Below are positions 10,345 to 58,799 of a stretch of DNA of 64,000 nucleotides, in pieces. Position 1 is the stretch's first letter, and each line of letters begins with the position of its first letter. The DNA comes from Thermoanaerobaculum sp. Its GTDB lineage: Bacteria; Acidobacteriota; Thermoanaerobaculia; Multivoradales; UBA5704. The translations under genes and the position numbers were made by a program. The stretch covers positions 248,001 to 312,000 of the forward strand of contig JAJKHS010000144.1 in the NCBI GenBank assembly GCA_021154885.1, written 5' to 3'. The notes beneath the pieces are model-generated. The model was not told the DNA's origin. It did no database searches and was given only the letters and a program-made list of their open reading frames with translations.

Positions 10345-10704
10345 TCAGTGATAGGTATACGCATCCAGCGCCACTTTCGCCGGGTCCTGGGGGTCGATCC
10401 GGACGTCGACCACGGAGCCGGGCTGGAAGCGGGGGATGTCCAGCCGGGAGATCAGGCTCTTGAGGATCGTGGCGGAGTAGGTCGAGCCGTCCGCGCGGGT
10501 GACCTCCACCTTCATGCCAATCACGGGGTCCTGATTGACGGTGATTCCCGTGTCCCAGATCTCCACGATCCGCGCGCTCGCGACCACCCCCGACGTCTGG
10601 AGCCGCTTGGCCTCCGCCACGCCGCTCATGCGGTCGATCATGGCGCAGCCGGCGAGGAGCGAGGCCAGGATGGAGAGGGCGGCAGCCCTATCGCGCCACG
10701 CCAT
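10345..10704 (-). CDS. Small lipoprotein with DUF3592-like beta domain
   Basis: A 119-residue protein with a lipoprotein signal (LSILASLLAGC, lipid-modified Cys at about 20). A beta-rich domain follows: GVVASARIVEIWDTGITVN, MKVEVTRADGSTYSA and RFQPGSVVDVRIDPQDP. The pattern of a variable coordinate, a conversion to a second form and PG..V.V..DP..P is typical of DUF3592-like modules. The function is unknown. Its start overlaps the 3' end of the upstream haem lipoprotein gene by 17 bases, which suggests translational coupling. Confidence 0.65.
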   Translation of the reverse strand: MAWRDRAAALSILASLLAGCAMIDRMSGVAEAKRLQTSGVVASARIVEIWDTGITVNQDPVIGMKVEVTRADGSTYSATILKSLISRLDIPRFQPGSVVDVRIDPQDPAKVALDAYTYH

Positions 10705-11050
10705 TCGTCTCCGGAGCCTCCTGCGCCAGGAACGACCGCAGAAGCTCCTGCTCCTGCGGGTCCTTGATGCGGGTGAACATCTTCTGCCCGAGCGTCCGGA
10801 TCGTCTGAGGGCGATCGAACGGCATCTTTTCGTACATCTTGCCGCCCGTGAAGTGGCAGGGCTGACAGCGCTTCTCCAGGATCGGACGGATCTGCATTGC
10901 GAAGTCCACCGGCCGCAGGGCCGCCGCCGTCGGTACAGGCGCAGAGGCCCGAATGGCGGCCGGCCGCGTCTTCGCCTGCGGGGCAGGGCTGCGGGCCGGC
11001 GCGCACGAGGCGAACAGCAGGGCGACCCCAGCCAGCGATCGAATCTTCAT
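10688..11050 (-). CDS. Lipid-anchored mono-haem cytochrome-like protein
   Basis: A 120-residue protein. MKIRSLAGVALLFASCAPARS is a lipoprotein signal with lipobox-like FASC. After a Pro/Ala-rich linker come RPILEKRCQPCHFTGG, one CXXCH haem site, and a possible axial Met in GGKMYEKM. It resembles the short haem domains found in Planctomycetes/Acidobacteria cytochromes of the form ..PIL..RC..CH..G. A periplasmic electron-transfer or haem-sensing role is plausible. I start at this Met; upstream sequence in the same frame lacks coding character. It overlaps the next lipoprotein gene by 17 bases. Confidence 0.72.
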   Translation of the reverse strand: MKIRSLAGVALLFASCAPARSPAPQAKTRPAAIRASAPVPTAAALRPVDFAMQIRPILEKRCQPCHFTGGKMYEKMPFDRPQTIRTLGQKMFTRIKDPQEQELLRSFLAQEAPETNGVAR

Positions 11051-11097
11051 GGCTTGATGGTACACCCTGGCCGGCCTGGACGGATTCGCGGCGAGCC

Positions 11098-11295
11098 TCA
11101 ATCCGGCACGCAGCGGCAGCAGTCTGGCGGCTTGAGGATCGGGTGCTGGCCCGTGGGGCAGGCCGCGCAGCGAACGGTCGAGCAATCCACCCTGCCCTCC
11201 TTCGATCCCGAGGTGTCGGTGCCCGGGGTCCGGGAGGCGCAGGCGCACAGCGCCAGGAGCCCAACGGTCAGGGCGAGTTTTCTCAGATTCTTCAT
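11098..11295 (-). CDS. Very small Cys-rich lipoprotein
   Basis: A 65-residue protein. It has a textbook start (AAAGGAGAAGCC directly before ATG), a lipoprotein signal MKNLRKLALTVGLLALCAC, and a mature part with six further Cys in about 25 residues (VDCSTVRCAACPTGQH, then PPDCCRCVPD). The paired Cys spacing suggests disulfides or a small metal site. No family recognised. It is the first gene of a short minus-strand set of three lipoproteins and lies downstream of the permease operon on the same strand. Confidence 0.7.
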   Translation of the reverse strand: MKNLRKLALTVGLLALCACASRTPGTDTSGSKEGRVDCSTVRCAACPTGQHPILKPPDCCRCVPD

Positions 11296-11392
11296 GGCTT
11301 CTCCTTTCCTGTCCCGCTCTGTCGGAGGCGGAATCGATTCGGAAAGGTTGAAGCAAATCCCAGACCACGGCAGTCCCGGCGACCGTGGAGAC

Positions 11393-12664
11393 CTACTCAT
11401 ACCGCAGCGCCTCGATCGGGTCCTGCCGTGCCGCCTTCATCGCGGGCCAGAGGCCGGCGGCGAGGCCCACGGTGGTGGAGACGGCGAAGCCGAGGACGAT
11501 CGACCAGAGAGGGGCCGCGGCTTGGAAATTAAACGCGACGCGGGCGAGGAGGGCCGCGCCCAGGCCGATGGCGATGCCGAGGCCGCCGCCCACGCCGGTC
11601 AGCGTCACCGCCTCGGCGAGGAACTGGACGGCGATGTCCCGCTTCGTGGCGCCCAAGGCCTTGCGCAGGCCGATCTCGCGCGTCCGCTGGGTGACGTTGA
11701 CCAGCATGATGTTCATCACGCCGACGCCGCCGACGATCAGCGAAATGCCCGCGATCAGGATCATCACCGCCGCCACGCCGCCCGTGATCTGGCGGAAATT
11801 GTTCAGCATCTCCATGCTGGTGAAGATCGCGAAGTCGTTCGCCTGGTTGGAGCGCAGCTTGCGCCGGGTGCGCAGGATCGCCGTCTCCTGATCGATCAGC
11901 TTGTCCACGTCCTCGGGCCGCCTGGGGACGGTCGCGATGTGCAGGGTGTCGCCGCCGCCGTCGCGAATTTGCGGGAATTGCTCGTCGAAGGCGGTGATCG
12001 GGATGATGAAAAGGTTGTCGTTGCTGCCGCCCAGGAACGAGCCCTTTTTGTCGAGCACGCCGATGACGTCGTAATCGATGCCCTCGATCTGGATGCGGCG
12101 GCCGATCGGGTCGCGGTGCGGGAAGAGCGCTTCGGCCACGTCGGCGCCGAGGACGGCCACGCGGGCGGCATGACGCACGTCGGCGTCGATCAGGAAGCGG
12201 CCATCCTGGACGGAGGAGTGATTGGCGAGCGTGTACTCCGGGGTCGCTCCCACCGGCGTCGGGCCGTTGGCGATCTCGCGTCCGGCCCGCACCTCGACCG
12301 GCGCGAAGAGGTAGCGCTCAGGGGAGACCGCCGCCGCGAAGGTCCCCAGCCGCTTGAGCGCCGCCGCGTCGTCCAGCGTCAGGTCGCGGCGATTCTTCTC
12401 CTCGTCCCGCCGGTCGTCGCCGCCGAAGCGGGGCTCGAATTTCTGGAACTGTACGAGGTGAGTGCCGAAGCTCGAAAACGCCGTGGTCACCGAGCGGTCG
12501 AAGCCGGCGACGAAAGAGACCATCATGATCACCGTGGCGACACCGGCCACGACGCCGAGCAGGGTGAGAAAGGTGCGCAGCTTCTGCGCCCGCATCGCCA
12601 CCAGGGCGAAGCGGACGTTCTCCGTCCAGGAGAGGCGCAGGCGGGAGCCCGGCCGCGGCGCCAT
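11393..12664 (-). CDS. MacB/FtsX-type ABC transporter permease (second of pair)
   Basis: A 423-residue permease. One N-terminal helix (LRTFLTLLGVVAGVATVIMM) is followed by a large periplasmic MacB_PCD-like domain (about residues 45-300) and three C-terminal helices of the FtsX domain, with the family motif REIGLRKALGATKRDI. The MacB architecture moves substrates within the periplasm to outer-membrane export by mechanotransmission. It begins at the ATG that shares its A with the stop of the preceding permease (TGATG), so translation is coupled. It has no nucleotide-binding domain of its own and no ATPase gene lies in this operon. Confidence 0.88.
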   Translation of the reverse strand: MAPRPGSRLRLSWTENVRFALVAMRAQKLRTFLTLLGVVAGVATVIMMVSFVAGFDRSVTTAFSSFGTHLVQFQKFEPRFGGDDRRDEEKNRRDLTLDDAAALKRLGTFAAAVSPERYLFAPVEVRAGREIANGPTPVGATPEYTLANHSSVQDGRFLIDADVRHAARVAVLGADVAEALFPHRDPIGRRIQIEGIDYDVIGVLDKKGSFLGGSNDNLFIIPITAFDEQFPQIRDGGGDTLHIATVPRRPEDVDKLIDQETAILRTRRKLRSNQANDFAIFTSMEMLNNFRQITGGVAAVMILIAGISLIVGGVGVMNIMLVNVTQRTREIGLRKALGATKRDIAVQFLAEAVTLTGVGGGLGIAIGLGAALLARVAFNFQAAAPLWSIVLGFAVSTTVGLAAGLWPAMKAARQDPIEALRYE

Positions 12665-38220: not shown

Positions 38221-38353
38221 TTCCTTCCTCTCCTCGCCAAGCCTCTCCGCATCCTCTAGACTCTGGGAGCTCCGATCCACCTCGCCGCTTCCGGGCGTCG
38301 CGAAGTGCGGTAAAATCGGAGCCGCTCGCCGATACCCTGAGCCTTTGCCGGAC

Positions 38354-41300
38354 ATGCCCTCAGAAACCATCGCCACCATCGCCAGCATCGCGGTCATTGC
38401 AGAGAAGCCCGCCGTCGCCCGGGACATCGCCCGTGTGCTCGGCGCGAGCCAGCGGGGGGAGGGCTTTCTCCAGGGCAACGGCTACGTCGTGACCTGGGCC
38501 ATCGGCCATCTGGTCACCCTCGCCCAGCCCCACGAGATCAATCCGGACTGGCGGCGCTGGCGGCGGGACCTGCTGCCCATGCTCCCCCGCGACTGGCCTC
38601 TCGTCGTCGCCGAGGACACGAAGGAGCAGTTCGAGGCCGTCCGCCGGGTGATCACCGCCCCCGGCGTCGAGCGCATCGTCTGCGCCACGGACGCCGGCCG
38701 CGAGGGCGAGCTGATCTTCCGCTACATCTACGAGGCGGCCGGCTGCTCCAAGCCCGTGCAGCGGCTGTGGATCTCCTCGCTCACCGCCGACGCCATCCGC
38801 CAGGGCTTCCGCAAGCTGCGCGACGGCCACGACTTCGACCCGCTCGCCGACGCCGCCCGCGGCCGCAGCCGGGCCGACTGGCTGGTGGGGATGAACCTCT
38901 CCCGCGCCTACACCCTGGACTTCAACGAGGACCTCTCCGTGGGGCGCGTCCAGACCCCCACGCTCGCCATGCTGGTGGAGCGCGAGCTGGCCATCCGCGC
39001 CTTCGTGCCTGAGGACTACCTGGAGGTTCTGGCCACCTTCTCGCCCGAGGGGACTATCGGGGCCAGGGGAATCGAGGAGGAAGCCCGTCCTTCTTATAAA
39101 GGCACCTGGTTCCGGGGAGACTCACCCCATCCCGAGGCGAAGCGGATCAAGGCGGCGCCGGACGCGAAGCCGGGGTCGGATCTCGAAGAGGCCATGCGGA
39201 TCGTCGGCCGGGCTCGCACCGGCCGGGCGGAGATCGAGTCGATCCGCGCCGAGACCAAGAGGATGCCGCCGCCGCTCCTCTACGACTTGACGGAGCTGCA
39301 GCGCCACGCCAACCGCCTCTACGGCTTCAGCGCCAAGAAGACCCTGGGGCTCGCCCAGACCCTCTACGAGCAGAAGAAGCTCATCAGCTATCCGCGCACG
39401 GACAGCCGCCACCTCTCGACCGACGTCGCCGCCACCCTGAACGAGATCGTGCGCGCCGTCGAGGGTCCCTATCTCAACAAGCTGGCCCCCGGCACCGGCG
39501 AGCGGCCCTTGAGCAAGCGGTTCGTGGACGACTCCAAGGTCACGGACCACCACGCCATCATCCCCACGCCGACCTCGCCCGCGGGCGCCGACCTCCTCGA
39601 CGACGAGCGCAAGGTCTACGACCTCATCTGCCGGCGCCTGCTCTCCGCCTGGCACGACGACCACGTCTGGTCCGTCACCACCGTCATCACCGCCATCAGC
39701 AATCCCCCGCCCTCGGGGATCGGCGAGCCGGCCGTGGACCGCTACCACAGCACCGGCACGCTGGTGGATCAGGTGGGCTGGAAGGTGCTCGATATCGAGA
39801 GGAAGAAGGCGAAGAGAAAGGACGACAAGGACGACAGGGACGACAGGGACAAGAAGAAGGACGACGAGGCCGCCGACCCCGCTCCCGTCGAGGAGAACCA
39901 GGACCTGCCGCCGGGCCTGACCCAGGGCCAGGCGCAGGAGGTGCTGGACGTCCGCGCCGTGGCCAAGCAGACCCGGCCGCCCAAGCGCTTCACCGAGGCG
40001 ACCCTCCTCACCGCCATGGAGACGGCCGGCAAGACCCTGGACGACAAGGAGCTCTCCGACGCGATGAAGGAGTCCGGCCTGGGGACTCCGGCCACCCGGG
40101 CGGAGATCATCGAAACCCTCCTGCGCCGCGAGTACATCGTGCGCACCGGCAAGACCCTGGAGGCGACCGACAAGGGCGTCCGCCTCGTCGAGGTCGTCCA
40201 CCCCCACGTCAAGAGCCCCGCCATGACCGGTCAGTGGGAGGCCCAGCTCCAGCGCATCCAGCGCGGCCAGGGCGATCTCGCGGCGTTCATGAAGGGGATC
40301 GAGGAGTACGTGCGGGAGGTGGTGGGGGGAGGCCTCACCTGCCCGGCCGCCACCCCCCTCCCAAGATCCCTCACCCCTGTCCCCTCTCCCGCCGCACTCC
40401 CCCCGACCGGGAGAGGGGGACCCGGAGGTCGCGGTCTTGCTGGTCTCCCTCTTCTCCCGGTTGGGGGGAGTGCGGTGGGAGAAGAGGGTCGGGGTGATGA
40501 GGGTCTTGGGCGGGCGCGCTCTGAGGCCAGGGTAGCCGCCCCCCGCGCCCACGACCTCCCCACCCTCCTCCGCACCGCCTTCCGCCTCACCGCCTTCCGT
40601 CCCTACCAGGAGGCGGTCTGCAAAGCGGTCGTGGCAGGCAAGGACGTCCTCCTCGTCATGCCCACGGGCGCCGGCAAGTCGCTCTGCTATCAGCTCCCCG
40701 GCCTCGCCCGGGGGGGCACGACGCTGGTCGTCTCGCCGCTGATCGCCCTGATGGAGGATCAGGTGGCCAAGCTCCGGGAGCTGGGCCTCAAGGCCGAGCG
40801 CATCCACTCGGGCCGGGATCGCTCCGCGTCGCGGCAGGTGTGCCTGGATTATCTGGCGGGCAAGCTCGACTACCTCTTCATCGCCCCCGAGCGTCTCTCC
40901 GTCCCCGGCTTTCCCGAGATGCTGGCCAGGCGCACGCCGGCCCTCATCGCGGTCGACGAGGCGCACTGCATCTCCCAGTGGGGGCACGACTTCCGGCCCG
41001 ACTACCGGCTGCTGGGCGGACGCCTGCCGCTGCTCCGGCCGGCGCCGGTCATCGCCCTGACCGCCACCGCCACGCCGCTCGTGCAGGACGACATCGCCGC
41101 CCAGCTCGGCCTCGCCCGCGAGGAGCGCTTCATCCACGGCTTCCGGCGCACCAACATCGCCGTCGAGCCGGTGGAGATGCTCCCCTCGGACCGCGCCGAC
41201 ACCGTCCGCCGCATCCTGGCGGACCCCGAGCGCCGGCCGGCCATCGTCTACGCCCCCACCCGCAAGGAGGCAGACCTCCTCGGCACGCTCCTGCACGACG

Positions 41301-42604
41301 ACTTCCCCGCCGCCACCTATCACGCCGGCATGACCACCCACGAGCGCGACCGCGTGCAGACCGCCTTCCTCTCCGGCCGGCTGGAGGTCATCGTCGCCAC
41401 CATCGCCTTCGGCATGGGGGTGGACAAGGCGAACATCCGCACGGTCATCCACACCGGCCTGCCCGGGAGCGTCGAAGGCTACTACCAGGAGATCGGCCGC
41501 GCCGGCCGCGACGGCCTCCCCTCGCGCGCCATCCTCCTCTACTCCTACAACGACCGCCGCAGCCACGAATGGTTCCACAACCGCGACTACCCCGAGGTGG
41601 CCGAGCTCGACCGCATCTTCCGCGCCCTCAATTCCCAGTCCCAGGTGGACGGCCAGGTCCGCAAACGGCTGGGGATGGACGAGGAGCTCTTCGAGCGCGC
41701 CCTGGAGAAGCTGTGGATCCACGGCGGCGCCCTGGTGGACGCGGACGGCAACGTCGCCCTCGGCACGACTGCGGCCAGCGGCTGGCAGCGGGCCTACCTG
41801 GCGCAGCGCGACCACAAGCTCGAGCAGCTCGAGCGGATGGTGCGCTACGCCGAGTCCCACGGCTGCCGCATGCTCCATCTCGTGCGCCACTTCGGCGACC
41901 AGGAGGACTCAGGGCAGCCGTGCGGCCTGTGCGACGTCTGCGCTCCGGACGACTGCGTGGCCCGCCGCTTCCGGGCGCCCAACGACCTGGAGCGGGAGCT
42001 GCTGGTCAGCGTCCTCAAAGGCCTGCGCCGGCGCGACGGCCAGTCCACCGGCCAGCTCTACCGCGAGATCTGCCCGGACGAGCTCTCGGACCGCAAGTCC
42101 TTCGAGCGCCTGCTGGGCGGCATGGCCCGCGCCGGCCTCCTCAGGCTCCAGGAGGACGCCTTCGAGAAGGACGGCAAGACCATCCGCTTCCAGCGCGCCG
42201 TCCTGACCCCCGAAGGCTACAACGGCGATCCGGCGATCATCGGCCGGGTGGAGATGGCCGAGGAGATGCCCAAGACGCGGAAGAAGCGCCAGCGCCCAGA
42301 CAAGGGGGAATCTCGGGCCTATCGCGAGCGGCTCGCGGCCCGCGCCGGCCAGGAGGGCCTCGCACCCGGCGCGGCGCCCGAGCTGGTCTCGCCGCCGCTC
42401 GTCGAGGCCCTCAAGGTCTGGCGCCGGGCCGAGGCCAGCCGCCGGCGCGTTCCCGCCTTCCGCATCCTCACCGACCGCGCCGTCCACGCCCTCGCCGCCA
42501 GCCGGCCGCAGAGCGAGTCCGACCTCCTCAACGTCCCCGGCATCGGGCCGACGATCGTGCAGAAATATGGGCGGGAGATCCTGGGGATCGTGGGCCAGGG
42601 GTGA
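38354..42604 (+). CDS. Topoisomerase III-RecQ helicase fusion protein
   Basis: A 1416-residue fusion. Residues 1-665 are a type IA topoisomerase: TOPRIM (VIAEKPAVARDIARVLGA with Glu17; CATDAGREGE, Asp113-Glu119) and active-site Tyr346 in LISYPRTDSRHL. Residues about 735-1225 are a RecQ helicase: PTGAGKS (Lys775), VDEAHCISQWGHDFRPDY (Asp868), RQC zinc ligands (CRMLHLVRHFGD...CGLCDVC), and a C-terminal HRDC domain. Top3 and RecQ normally act as partner proteins to dissolve double Holliday junctions; here both lie in one chain. A Lys/Asp-rich insert (about 485-505) and a palindromic repeat (670-719) interrupt conserved regions. No C-terminal topoisomerase zinc ribbons. Start codon ambiguous by three codons (TTG upstream). 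Confidence 0.92.
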   Translation: MPSETIATIASIAVIAEKPAVARDIARVLGASQRGEGFLQGNGYVVTWAIGHLVTLAQPHEINPDWRRWRRDLLPMLPRDWPLVVAEDTKEQFEAVRRVITAPGVERIVCATDAGREGELIFRYIYEAAGCSKPVQRLWISSLTADAIRQGFRKLRDGHDFDPLADAARGRSRADWLVGMNLSRAYTLDFNEDLSVGRVQTPTLAMLVERELAIRAFVPEDYLEVLATFSPEGTIGARGIEEEARPSYKGTWFRGDSPHPEAKRIKAAPDAKPGSDLEEAMRIVGRARTGRAEIESIRAETKRMPPPLLYDLTELQRHANRLYGFSAKKTLGLAQTLYEQKKLISYPRTDSRHLSTDVAATLNEIVRAVEGPYLNKLAPGTGERPLSKRFVDDSKVTDHHAIIPTPTSPAGADLLDDERKVYDLICRRLLSAWHDDHVWSVTTVITAISNPPPSGIGEPAVDRYHSTGTLVDQVGWKVLDIERKKAKRKDDKDDRDDRDKKKDDEAADPAPVEENQDLPPGLTQGQAQEVLDVRAVAKQTRPPKRFTEATLLTAMETAGKTLDDKELSDAMKESGLGTPATRAEIIETLLRREYIVRTGKTLEATDKGVRLVEVVHPHVKSPAMTGQWEAQLQRIQRGQGDLAAFMKGIEEYVREVVGGGLTCPAATPLPRSLTPVPSPAALPPTGRGGPGGRGLAGLPLLPVGGSAVGEEGRGDEGLGRARSEARVAAPRAHDLPTLLRTAFRLTAFRPYQEAVCKAVVAGKDVLLVMPTGAGKSLCYQLPGLARGGTTLVVSPLIALMEDQVAKLRELGLKAERIHSGRDRSASRQVCLDYLAGKLDYLFIAPERLSVPGFPEMLARRTPALIAVDEAHCISQWGHDFRPDYRLLGGRLPLLRPAPVIALTATATPLVQDDIAAQLGLAREERFIHGFRRTNIAVEPVEMLPSDRADTVRRILADPERRPAIVYAPTRKEADLLGTLLHDDFPAATYHAGMTTHERDRVQTAFLSGRLEVIVATIAFGMGVDKANIRTVIHTGLPGSVEGYYQEIGRAGRDGLPSRAILLYSYNDRRSHEWFHNRDYPEVAELDRIFRALNSQSQVDGQVRKRLGMDEELFERALEKLWIHGGALVDADGNVALGTTAASGWQRAYLAQRDHKLEQLERMVRYAESHGCRMLHLVRHFGDQEDSGQPCGLCDVCAPDDCVARRFRAPNDLERELLVSVLKGLRRRDGQSTGQLYREICPDELSDRKSFERLLGGMARAGLLRLQEDAFEKDGKTIRFQRAVLTPEGYNGDPAIIGRVEMAEEMPKTRKKRQRPDKGESRAYRERLAARAGQEGLAPGAAPELVSPPLVEALKVWRRAEASRRRVPAFRILTDRAVHALAASRPQSESDLLNVPGIGPTIVQKYGREILGIVGQG
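40361..40509. repeat. Palindromic repeat element embedded in the coding linker
   Basis: Two arms (40361-40422 and 40442-40509) form a long imperfect hairpin: CCAAGATCCCTCACCCC pairs with GGGGTGATGAGGGTCTTGG, and a 23-base stretch beginning CCGCACTCCCCCC at about 40393 is inverted at about 40453 with one mismatch. Such CTCACCCC...CTCCCG...GGGAGAGGGG elements are common intergenic repeats in GC-rich bacteria. Here it is read in frame, giving the Pro/Gly-rich linker (residues about 670-719) between the topoisomerase and helicase. Confidence 0.75.
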
Positions 42605-42676: not shown

Positions 42677-43471
42677 ATGAGCACCATCCTGAAGCTCTCC
42701 TTCCTCGCCCTGGTCCTGGCCGTCCTCGCTCCCCGCGGGGGCTCCGGCGCGGCGGCGGCCGACTCCGACCGCACCGCCGTCGTCGAGCTCTTCACCTCCC
42801 AGGGGTGCTCGAGCTGCCCGCCGGCGGATAGATTGCTGGCCAAGCTGGCCCACGACCCCCAGTACCAGGGGAGGGTCATCCCGCTATCGTTCCACGTCGA
42901 CTACTGGAACTACATCGGCTGGCAGGACCCCTTCTCCTCGGCGCGCTGGTCCGACCGGCAGAAGCTCTACGGTGCCCGGGTGTTCCACACCAACCGGATC
43001 TACACCCCGCAGGTGGTGATCAACGGCCGGGCGGAGTGCGTGGGCTCCGAGGAGGGGCAGGTGATCGGCCGCATCGGCGACGCCCTGAGCCAGGAGCCGG
43101 CCGGCCGGGTCACCCTGGCCGTCGATCCGCCCACGCCGGACGGCCACCTGCGGGTGAAAGTGGGAGCCAAGATGGCCCGCGCCGCCGGATCGGGGGACCT
43201 CGACCTCTGGGTGGCCATCTACGAGAGCGGGCTGTCCACGCCGGTGAAGGCGGGGGAGAACGCCTCGCGCGTCCTGCGCAATGACCGGGTGGTGCGCCGC
43301 TTCGAGAAGGCCCTGACCCTGCCGGCCGCCGCCGGCTCCGAGAAGTCGGCCGAGATCGTCCTCGGCATCGACAAGCGCTGGAAGGTGGACGCCCTGGGAG
43401 TGGCCGCCTTCCTCCAGGACCCGGCGACCCTGGCCATCCAGGGAGCGGCGGCGCGAGAGGTGGGGCGGTAG
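42677..43471 (+). CDS. DUF1223 secreted thioredoxin-fold protein
   Basis: A 264-residue exported protein with a signal peptide (about 1-27) and the DUF1223 core VVELFTSQGCSSCPPADRLL, with redox pair Cys44/Cys47, followed by SFHVDYWNYIGWQDPFSS and YTPQVVINGRAECVGS. It is thioredoxin-like but of unproven function; a thiol-oxidoreductase role is plausible. GGAGGTCCGATCCC precedes the ATG. Its last 127 bases, including the stop, are repeated at 44409-44538 on the other side of a foreign-looking insertion. Confidence 0.88.
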   Translation: MSTILKLSFLALVLAVLAPRGGSGAAAADSDRTAVVELFTSQGCSSCPPADRLLAKLAHDPQYQGRVIPLSFHVDYWNYIGWQDPFSSARWSDRQKLYGARVFHTNRIYTPQVVINGRAECVGSEEGQVIGRIGDALSQEPAGRVTLAVDPPTPDGHLRVKVGAKMARAAGSGDLDLWVAIYESGLSTPVKAGENASRVLRNDRVVRRFEKALTLPAAAGSEKSAEIVLGIDKRWKVDALGVAAFLQDPATLAIQGAAAREVGR

Positions 43472-44408: not shown

Positions 44409-44538
44409 GCCGAGATCGTCCTCGGCGTCGACAAGCGCTGGAAGGTGGACGCCCTGGGAGTGGCCGCCTTCCTCCAGGACCCGGCGACCCTGGCCATCCA
44501 GGGAGCGGCGGCGCGAGAGGTGGTGGGGCGGTAGGAGC
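44409..44538 (+). repeat. Direct repeat copy 2 (duplicated end of DUF1223 gene)
   Basis: These 130 bases duplicate 43349-43475, reading in frame EIVLGVDKRWKVDALG ... GAAAREVVGR and stop, but without the rest of the gene. It is a C-terminal fragment of the DUF1223 gene and marks the far edge of the Panacea insertion. Bases 44220-44408 between the Panacea start and this copy hold no recognisable gene; they presumably carry its promoter and include the palindrome TGGTACCA near 44332. Confidence 0.9.
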
Positions 44539-44576
44539 CTGCTTCGGCCATAGCAGGAATCGCTGTCAAGGCAGCA

Positions 44577-44828
44577 GTCACTGCTGGGCCGCCAGCGGTC
44601 GCTGCTGGGCTGGCAGCAGTCGTTGCTGGCTCGGCAGCGGTCGCTGCTGGGCCGCCAGCGGTCGTCGCTGGGCCGGCAGCAGTCGCTGCTGGGTCGCCAG
44701 CGGTCGTTGCTGGGCTGGCAGCAGTCACTGCTGGGCCGGCAGCGATCGTCGCTAGGCTGGCAGCAGTCGCTGCTGGGCCGGCAGCGGTCGTTGCTGGGCT
44801 GGCAGCGGCCGTTGCTGGCTCGGCAGCA
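44577..44828. repeat. Minisatellite, 12 units of 21 bp
   Basis: Twelve consecutive 21-base units with consensus GTCGCTGCTGGGCCGGCAGC plus A/G. Each unit is an imperfect palindrome (CGCTGC ... GCAGCG). Because 21 is a multiple of three, several frames on both strands stay open, giving heptapeptide repeats such as LGRQRSL (plus) and Ala/Thr/Pro-rich repeats (minus). No convincing start and ribosome-binding site goes with any of them, so I treat it as non-coding. The remaining 44829-44942 holds only a decayed further unit. Confidence 0.9.
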
Positions 44829-44942
44829 GCCGCTGGCAAGGTAGGAGTCGCCGCTGCCGTGATAGCAGTTGGCGCTCGCCACCAGCCGTTCAGAGCTGCG
44901 GTATGGAGATTGCCTGGAAGCGGGAGAAAAGGACCAGGCGGC

Positions 44943-58554: not shown

Positions 58555-58568
58555 AGCCGCCCCCGATC

Positions 58569-58799
58569 CCGCTCATCGGCTTCGCGAAGCCTCTCATCGG
58601 CTTCGCGAAGCCCGTCACCGGCCTCGCGAAGCCCGTCATCGGCCTCGCGAAGCCCGTCATCGACCTCGCGAAGCCCGTCATCGGCTTCGCCATGCCCGTC
58701 ATCGGCCTCGCGAAGCCCGCGCCGGGCCTCGCGAATTCTCGTAACGGCCTCACGAATTCTCGTAACGGCTTCGCGGGGCCGCTGAGGGGCTTCGCGAAG
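58569..58799. repeat. Minisatellite, 11 units of 21 bp, between convergent genes
   Basis: Eleven 21-base units, consensus CCCGTCATCGGCCTCGCGAA plus G; several contain the perfect palindrome GGCTTCGCGAAGCC. It fills the gap between the convergent hydrolase (stop 58554) and acyltransferase (stop 58806) genes. In-frame translation gives heptapeptides such as KPVIGLA (plus) or GFARPMT (minus), open on both strands but without credible starts. Terminator-like or structural function is possible. Confidence 0.9.

Follow-up and report, generated by a model that had tools for sequence, protein, structure and literature searches.

Palindromic selfish DNA that is read in frame within genes is best known from Rickettsia and from a few other MITE-bearing bacteria. 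The closest described systems are the Rickettsia palindromic elements (RPE; Ogata 2000, 2002; reviewed in PMC10969869 and PMC2229807), the MITEs for which in-frame gene fusions are described, namely ERIC, YPAL, the 107-bp Correia element and QMITE (PMC2229807, PMC5896051; the ERIC, YPAL and Correia fusions also in PMC10969869), and the REP, BIME and REPIN elements (PMC3733652, PMC3116915, PMC2817692). The element described here was found within the window, by which we mean the whole 64,000-nucleotide stretch of DNA that was analysed, where one copy lies in a gene joining a topoisomerase III (Top3) to a RecQ helicase. Like RPE, it is a palindromic selfish repeat of 100-200 bp with many copies, some of them in frame in unrelated conserved genes, and its protein product is apparently tolerated. 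Unlike RPE, it belongs to a different lineage, is GC-rich, is found in both orientations and in more than one frame and is mostly intergenic, with no preferred peptide frame and no sign of open-frame selection. As the copies showed no preferred peptide frame, the element was not classed as an RPE, but the comparison with RPE made in the original prediction is apt as to mode of action, given the in-frame copies in other genes, and by analogy the element may work in the way that RPE do.

In common with bacterial MITEs the element is non-autonomous, hairpin-forming and stop-poor, with terminal inverted repeats (TIRs), putative target duplications and some in-frame copies; it differs from ERIC, YPAL, Correia and QMITE in its 11-bp duplication and AGGCGCTRACTT terminus, in that at least one copy makes up an entire interdomain linker, and in that no driving transposase was found. 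With REP, BIME and REPIN it shares GC-rich hairpin units that are single or in inverted pairs and mainly intergenic, but its units are larger than 20-40 bp, it has TIRs and 11-bp duplications and no RAYT gene was found beside its copies, this last being the reason that it was not filed as a REP/REPIN. The element is met here in a GC-rich, uncultured bacterium whose genome is 8 Mb in size, with a filled/empty gene pair between congeners, and one mobile copy makes up a complete interdomain linker. No description of a Top3-RecQ fusion with a palindromic-element linker came up in literature searches. The most probable account, which we hold with considerable confidence, is that a dispersed MITE-like palindrome transposed into an already fused Top3-RecQ gene and is tolerated there as a disordered spacer, being neither a regulatory device nor the cause of the fusion. 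The features concerned are listed in the table.

Features of the palindromic element and of two genes that carry it (positions are those of the window unless a contig is named)
Feature	Position	Strand	Context or evidence
Top3-RecQ fusion gene	38345..42604	+	1419-codon ORF; Pfam and NCBIfam profile matches
Whole MITE-like palindromic element with decayed TIRs, about 211 bp	about 40330..40540	+	interdomain linker, residues about 663-733
Conserved core CCCTCACCCCTG...GGGGTGATGAGGG	40368..40503	+	alignment of 30 genomic copies; nhmmer model
Left hairpin arm	40385..40419	+	inverted repeat, 89% complementary
Right hairpin arm	40448..40482	+	inverted repeat; 22/23 core block
Decayed left TIR	40330..40367	+	TIR alignment against shuffles
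Decayed right TIR TCTTGGGCGGGCGCGCTCTGAGGCCAGGGTAGCCGCC	40504..40540	+	TIR alignment against shuffles
HisC-HisB open frame (L250/L257)	G000:C160, about 10411-12237		junction with the window's element, antisense

The gene carrying the window copy encodes Toprim, Topoisom_bac, DEAD, Helicase_C, RecQ_Zn_bind and HRDC domains (Pfam), the Zn-binding and HRDC domains both being found in the RecQ half. The topoisomerase half passes the curated cut-offs for DNA topoisomerase III (TopB; NF005829, 654.8 bits for a cut-off of 597; TIGR01056, 560.7 bits for a cut-off of 515.75) and the helicase half passes that for the RecQ family (TIGR00614, 378.9 bits for a cut-off of 219.8), and the two are presumably made as a single polypeptide. 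As predicted, the palindrome is read through in frame between the two parts, and the ORF and Pfam matches place it precisely in the gap at residues 650-740, between Topoisom_bac (residues 165-650) and DEAD (residues 752-910). The Pro/Gly-rich linker role assigned to it was also borne out, as the element is coextensive with the whole linker, which is 71 residues long and rich in Gly, Pro and Ala. AlphaFold2, run with a 15-sequence alignment, gave a pLDDT below 50 over residues 663-734, which are thus predicted to be disordered.

The two inverted GC-rich arms are 35 nt each, and their best ungapped block (40392-40414 against 40453-40475) pairs at 22 of 23 positions, in agreement with the original prediction. 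Folded as single-stranded DNA, the palindrome reaches -64.6 kcal/mol, compared to -39.8 +/- 3.2 for shuffled sequence (z -7.7), and none of 200 shuffles folded as well. The predicted limits of 40361-40509 hold for the palindrome with its outer arms but are slightly too narrow for the element, whose decayed TIRs extend beyond them on both sides. The left TIR aligned to that of the copy at L026 with a score of 13.5 (2.8 +/- 2.7 for shuffles) and the right TIR to that of the copy at L023 with a score of 24.1 (0.8 +/- 2.5 for shuffles), no shuffle out of 500 equalling the score in either case; the left TIR matched those of L026 and L335 significantly, but not those of L029 or of the copy in the ArnT gene described below. 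A target duplication was sought around the window copy and none was recognisable (best 7/11). Such a stable potential hairpin could be a functional signal (a terminator, a translation attenuator or an RNA-processing site) by which the gene would tune its Top3 and RecQ output or keep the two apart, but the linkers of fused relatives have no sequence in common with the palindrome, assessable copies are found in all gene orientations, with 32 lying between same-strand genes, 7 between convergent and 5 between divergent ones, and 6 inside open frames, and no conserved position relative to starts or stops was seen, making this role very unlikely.

The repeat was searched for elsewhere in the genome of the window (G000, an 8.2 Mb draft in 161 contigs) and, as the original prediction supposed, it is multi-copy. 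BLAST with positions 40350-40520 gave at least 40 scored copies, the best of the others being 81-93% identical over 135-170 bp (the top one 93% over 139 bp), and the arm pattern had about 109 matches compared to 68 for a reversed control. An nhmmer profile built from 30 copies and used to search the fetched loci found 80 copies, 56 of them full length, with a mean of 174 bp and 71% GC. The core is common to the genomic copies and the better-kept ones run on into TIRs, as in the ArnT copy (L243) and at L026; in this analysis the element was seen in genomes G000-G003. Many copies in one genome, TIRs, and empty sites in relatives (for the ArnT gene in G001 and G002, and for an FdrA gene in G003, G013 and G010) are together what is expected of a MITE.

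A TIR pattern search of the draft genome gave 69 matches when up to 2 mismatches were allowed, and no transposase with matching ends was noticed among the TIR pairs, which were checked by eye; a MITE does not strictly need such an autonomous partner. The one kilobase-scale pair that was looked at closely (3.8 kb; L327, G000:C143:178600-182900) was rejected as an autonomous partner: it is a small TIR element split by an insertion carrying an IS1595-like transposase (family assigned by eye), and as this insertion has its own terminal repeats and is lodged in the end of a CATAGGCGCTAACTTT element, the 3.8-kb pair is misleading. Movement by a RAYT (Y1) transposase, as a REP/REPIN-type element and not as a MITE with TIRs and target duplications, would be in keeping with the finding in G001-G003 of single-hairpin relatives alongside hairpins in inverted pairs, a mixture known from REP/BIME arrays, and with the 12 Y1_Tnp matches in the genome. 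However, none of these 12 Y1 genes had a hairpin unit in its fetched flanks of about 1.5 kb, as judged by a regular-expression test, and a RAYT-driven REP was rejected on that ground; the length of the units also exceeds 20-40 bp, and TIRs with 11-bp duplications suit a DDE-type MITE better, so that we regard the REP/REPIN reading as unlikely.

The original prediction held that the element created the fusion, by inserting between neighbouring Top3 and RecQ genes and removing the stop of the first, and it is true that the element occupies precisely the junction and accounts for all of the linker, and that palindromic repeats also occupy the junction of the fused hisC and hisB genes in three genomes of the family (see below). 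Relatives were checked for separate Top3 and RecQ genes at this junction, and what was found was fusions with unrelated linkers, a result that the original prediction had itself set against its proposal. Top3-RecQ is one open frame in G003, of the same family as the window genome, and in G016, G023, G029, G033, G036 and G044 of the same order, and fused genes with the same domain order are present in MAGs named Bryobacterales, Acidobacteria, Myxococcaceae/Myxococcales and Bdellovibrionales, the nearest named relatives by this gene in the collection searched being Bryobacterales (Acidobacteriota) MAGs. These homologues show 49-79% identity per half, and their linkers are 37-223 aa long, of low complexity and unrelated to each other and to the element. 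Fusions are thus found far beyond the genomes in which this analysis saw the element, and its having made the fusion is highly improbable; for this lineage the claim is refuted, and it could be rescued only if family f1, to which the window genome belongs, had lost the fusion and then regained it. Comparison of these sequences instead indicates that the element probably inserted into an old, already existing fusion. The G003 linker holds a different single-hairpin repeat of similar sequence style, in another reading frame, and the hairpin unit of this repeat is itself dispersed in G003, suggesting that the Top3-RecQ linker tolerates such repeats. In the congeners G001 and G002 the contigs end before the linker, at query residues 593 and 645 respectively.

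Members of genus g5 of the same order (L042-L051 and others) have a RecQ half without a close Top3 half, a search for the latter giving nothing beyond the level of distant, approximately 30% identical topoisomerases. A related genus (G036) retains the fusion, which suggests that g5 lost the topoisomerase part.

When the codon usage of both flanks was tested for 70 assessable copies, 6 showed the same coding frame on either side, with no stop: those in Top3-RecQ, FdrA, ArnT and HisC-HisB, and candidates in a GAF-C39/ABC gene (L010/L337) and in an NRPS gene. The element is read in the sense direction in Top3-RecQ and FdrA and antisense in ArnT, HisC-HisB and C39. In the FdrA-like protein (L023/L297) it also lies in an interdomain linker, which in relatives is of about 20 residues, being short and without the repeat in G003, G013 and G010. 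The gene for the ArnT-like glycosyltransferase (L243/L312) is uninterrupted in the congeners G001 and G002, and the insert consists of a 232-bp element and an 11-bp target duplication matching at 9/11 (net +237 nt), with the flanks GGAGAGCGGGG/GGGGAGCGAGG. Sister elements that have the same TIR also show 11-bp duplications, and in one of them, about 170 bp long and nested within a copy of the repeat, the duplication (GGGGACAGGGG) is perfect. Many GC-rich ORFs that span other copies (L013, L015, L022, L025 and others) were not accepted as in-frame insertions, since the codon usage of their flanks disagrees in frame or strand, or because there are stops inside.

At L252 (G000:C11, approximately 1669-1755) the match is partial: one hairpin unit, apparently translated in frame, immediately precedes the YIIYTSGSTG motif of an NRPS adenylation domain. 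At L010/L350 (G000:C45, approximately 78370-80628) a copy of the element links a GAF-like segment to a C39-peptidase ABC transporter. The transporter of G002 has its own gene, distinct from that of a GAF-HlyD-like protein, and so either an HlyD-like segment was apparently lost in the joining or the assembly is chimeric at the repeat. Many contig ends of the draft genome fall within the repeat, and an assembly chimera, in which two unrelated contigs were joined at it, might be supposed for the window copy as well as for the GAF-C39 copy. At Top3-RecQ, however, the two sides belong together as parts of one protein (70% and 67% identical to the fused protein of G003), an outcome not expected of a random join, and the halves of ArnT and HisC-HisB match likewise, so that a chimeric Top3-RecQ is barely credible.

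Copies of the element have on average 2.95 stop-free frames, compared to 3.45 +/- 0.13 for dinucleotide shuffles and 3.13 for random segments of the window; as they are not more stop-free than shuffles, the 71% GC alone accounts for the read-through, and selection for translatability was rejected. A possible course of events is that the non-autonomous element, in which TIRs enclose a facing pair of GC-rich hairpin units, sent a copy by transposition into the interdomain linker of the fused gene and that this insertion preserved the reading frame. With around half of the six frames stop-free at this GC content, a disordered Gly/Pro/Ala-rich linker of about 70 residues would be translated, and it would be tolerated because the length and sequence of the linker are free to vary. 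The copy would then be selfish DNA turned spacer, without a regulatory or fusion-causing role, and its product probably a neutral linker that may serve as a flexible joint in an active protein.

The prediction that such repeats join neighbouring genes does not hold at Top3-RecQ, and a circumstantial case for it comes from a different locus. In all three members of family f1 examined (G000, G003 at L258 and G001 at L282) hisC and hisB are in one frame, while in the 23 relatives outside f1 in which the junction was read and the two genes are close neighbours, hisC ends in a stop and hisB is in another frame; the junction was also read in G030, where the genes are approximately 770 nt apart. Each f1 junction holds a different palindromic repeat: beside the window's element in G000, these are a single hairpin of similar style in G003 and, in G001, a palindrome of the GTAGGGGCGGGG type that is dispersed in that genome. 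In G001 the 18 codons that precede hisB include no in-frame ATG, GTG or TTG, and a true fusion is therefore favoured there. A single ancestral fusion whose linker later gathered repeats would fit these junctions, as would repeats that made, or remade, the fusion. These loci form a natural set for asking if linkers, or even gene fusions, can arise from mobile palindromes. That the GC-rich palindromic repeats of f1 are a recurrent glue for gene fusion, with stop-lacking repeat families at gene junctions or interdomain linkers turning operon neighbours into single frames, is a tentative and somewhat doubtful idea, for which hisC-hisB would be the clearest case.

One further element with the same TIRs (L336, G000:C141:3000-3900) carries a 21-bp minisatellite that resembles, by eye, an array in the window near 44570. 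This window array has approximately 12.7 units of 21 bp (44570-44835) and adjoins a 120-nt segment (44409-44528) that is a 98% identical copy of 43349-43468, the 3' part of the ORF at 42677-43471. A second 21-bp tandem array of about 8 units (CCCGTCATCGGCCTCGCGAAG) is found in the window at 58568-58775.
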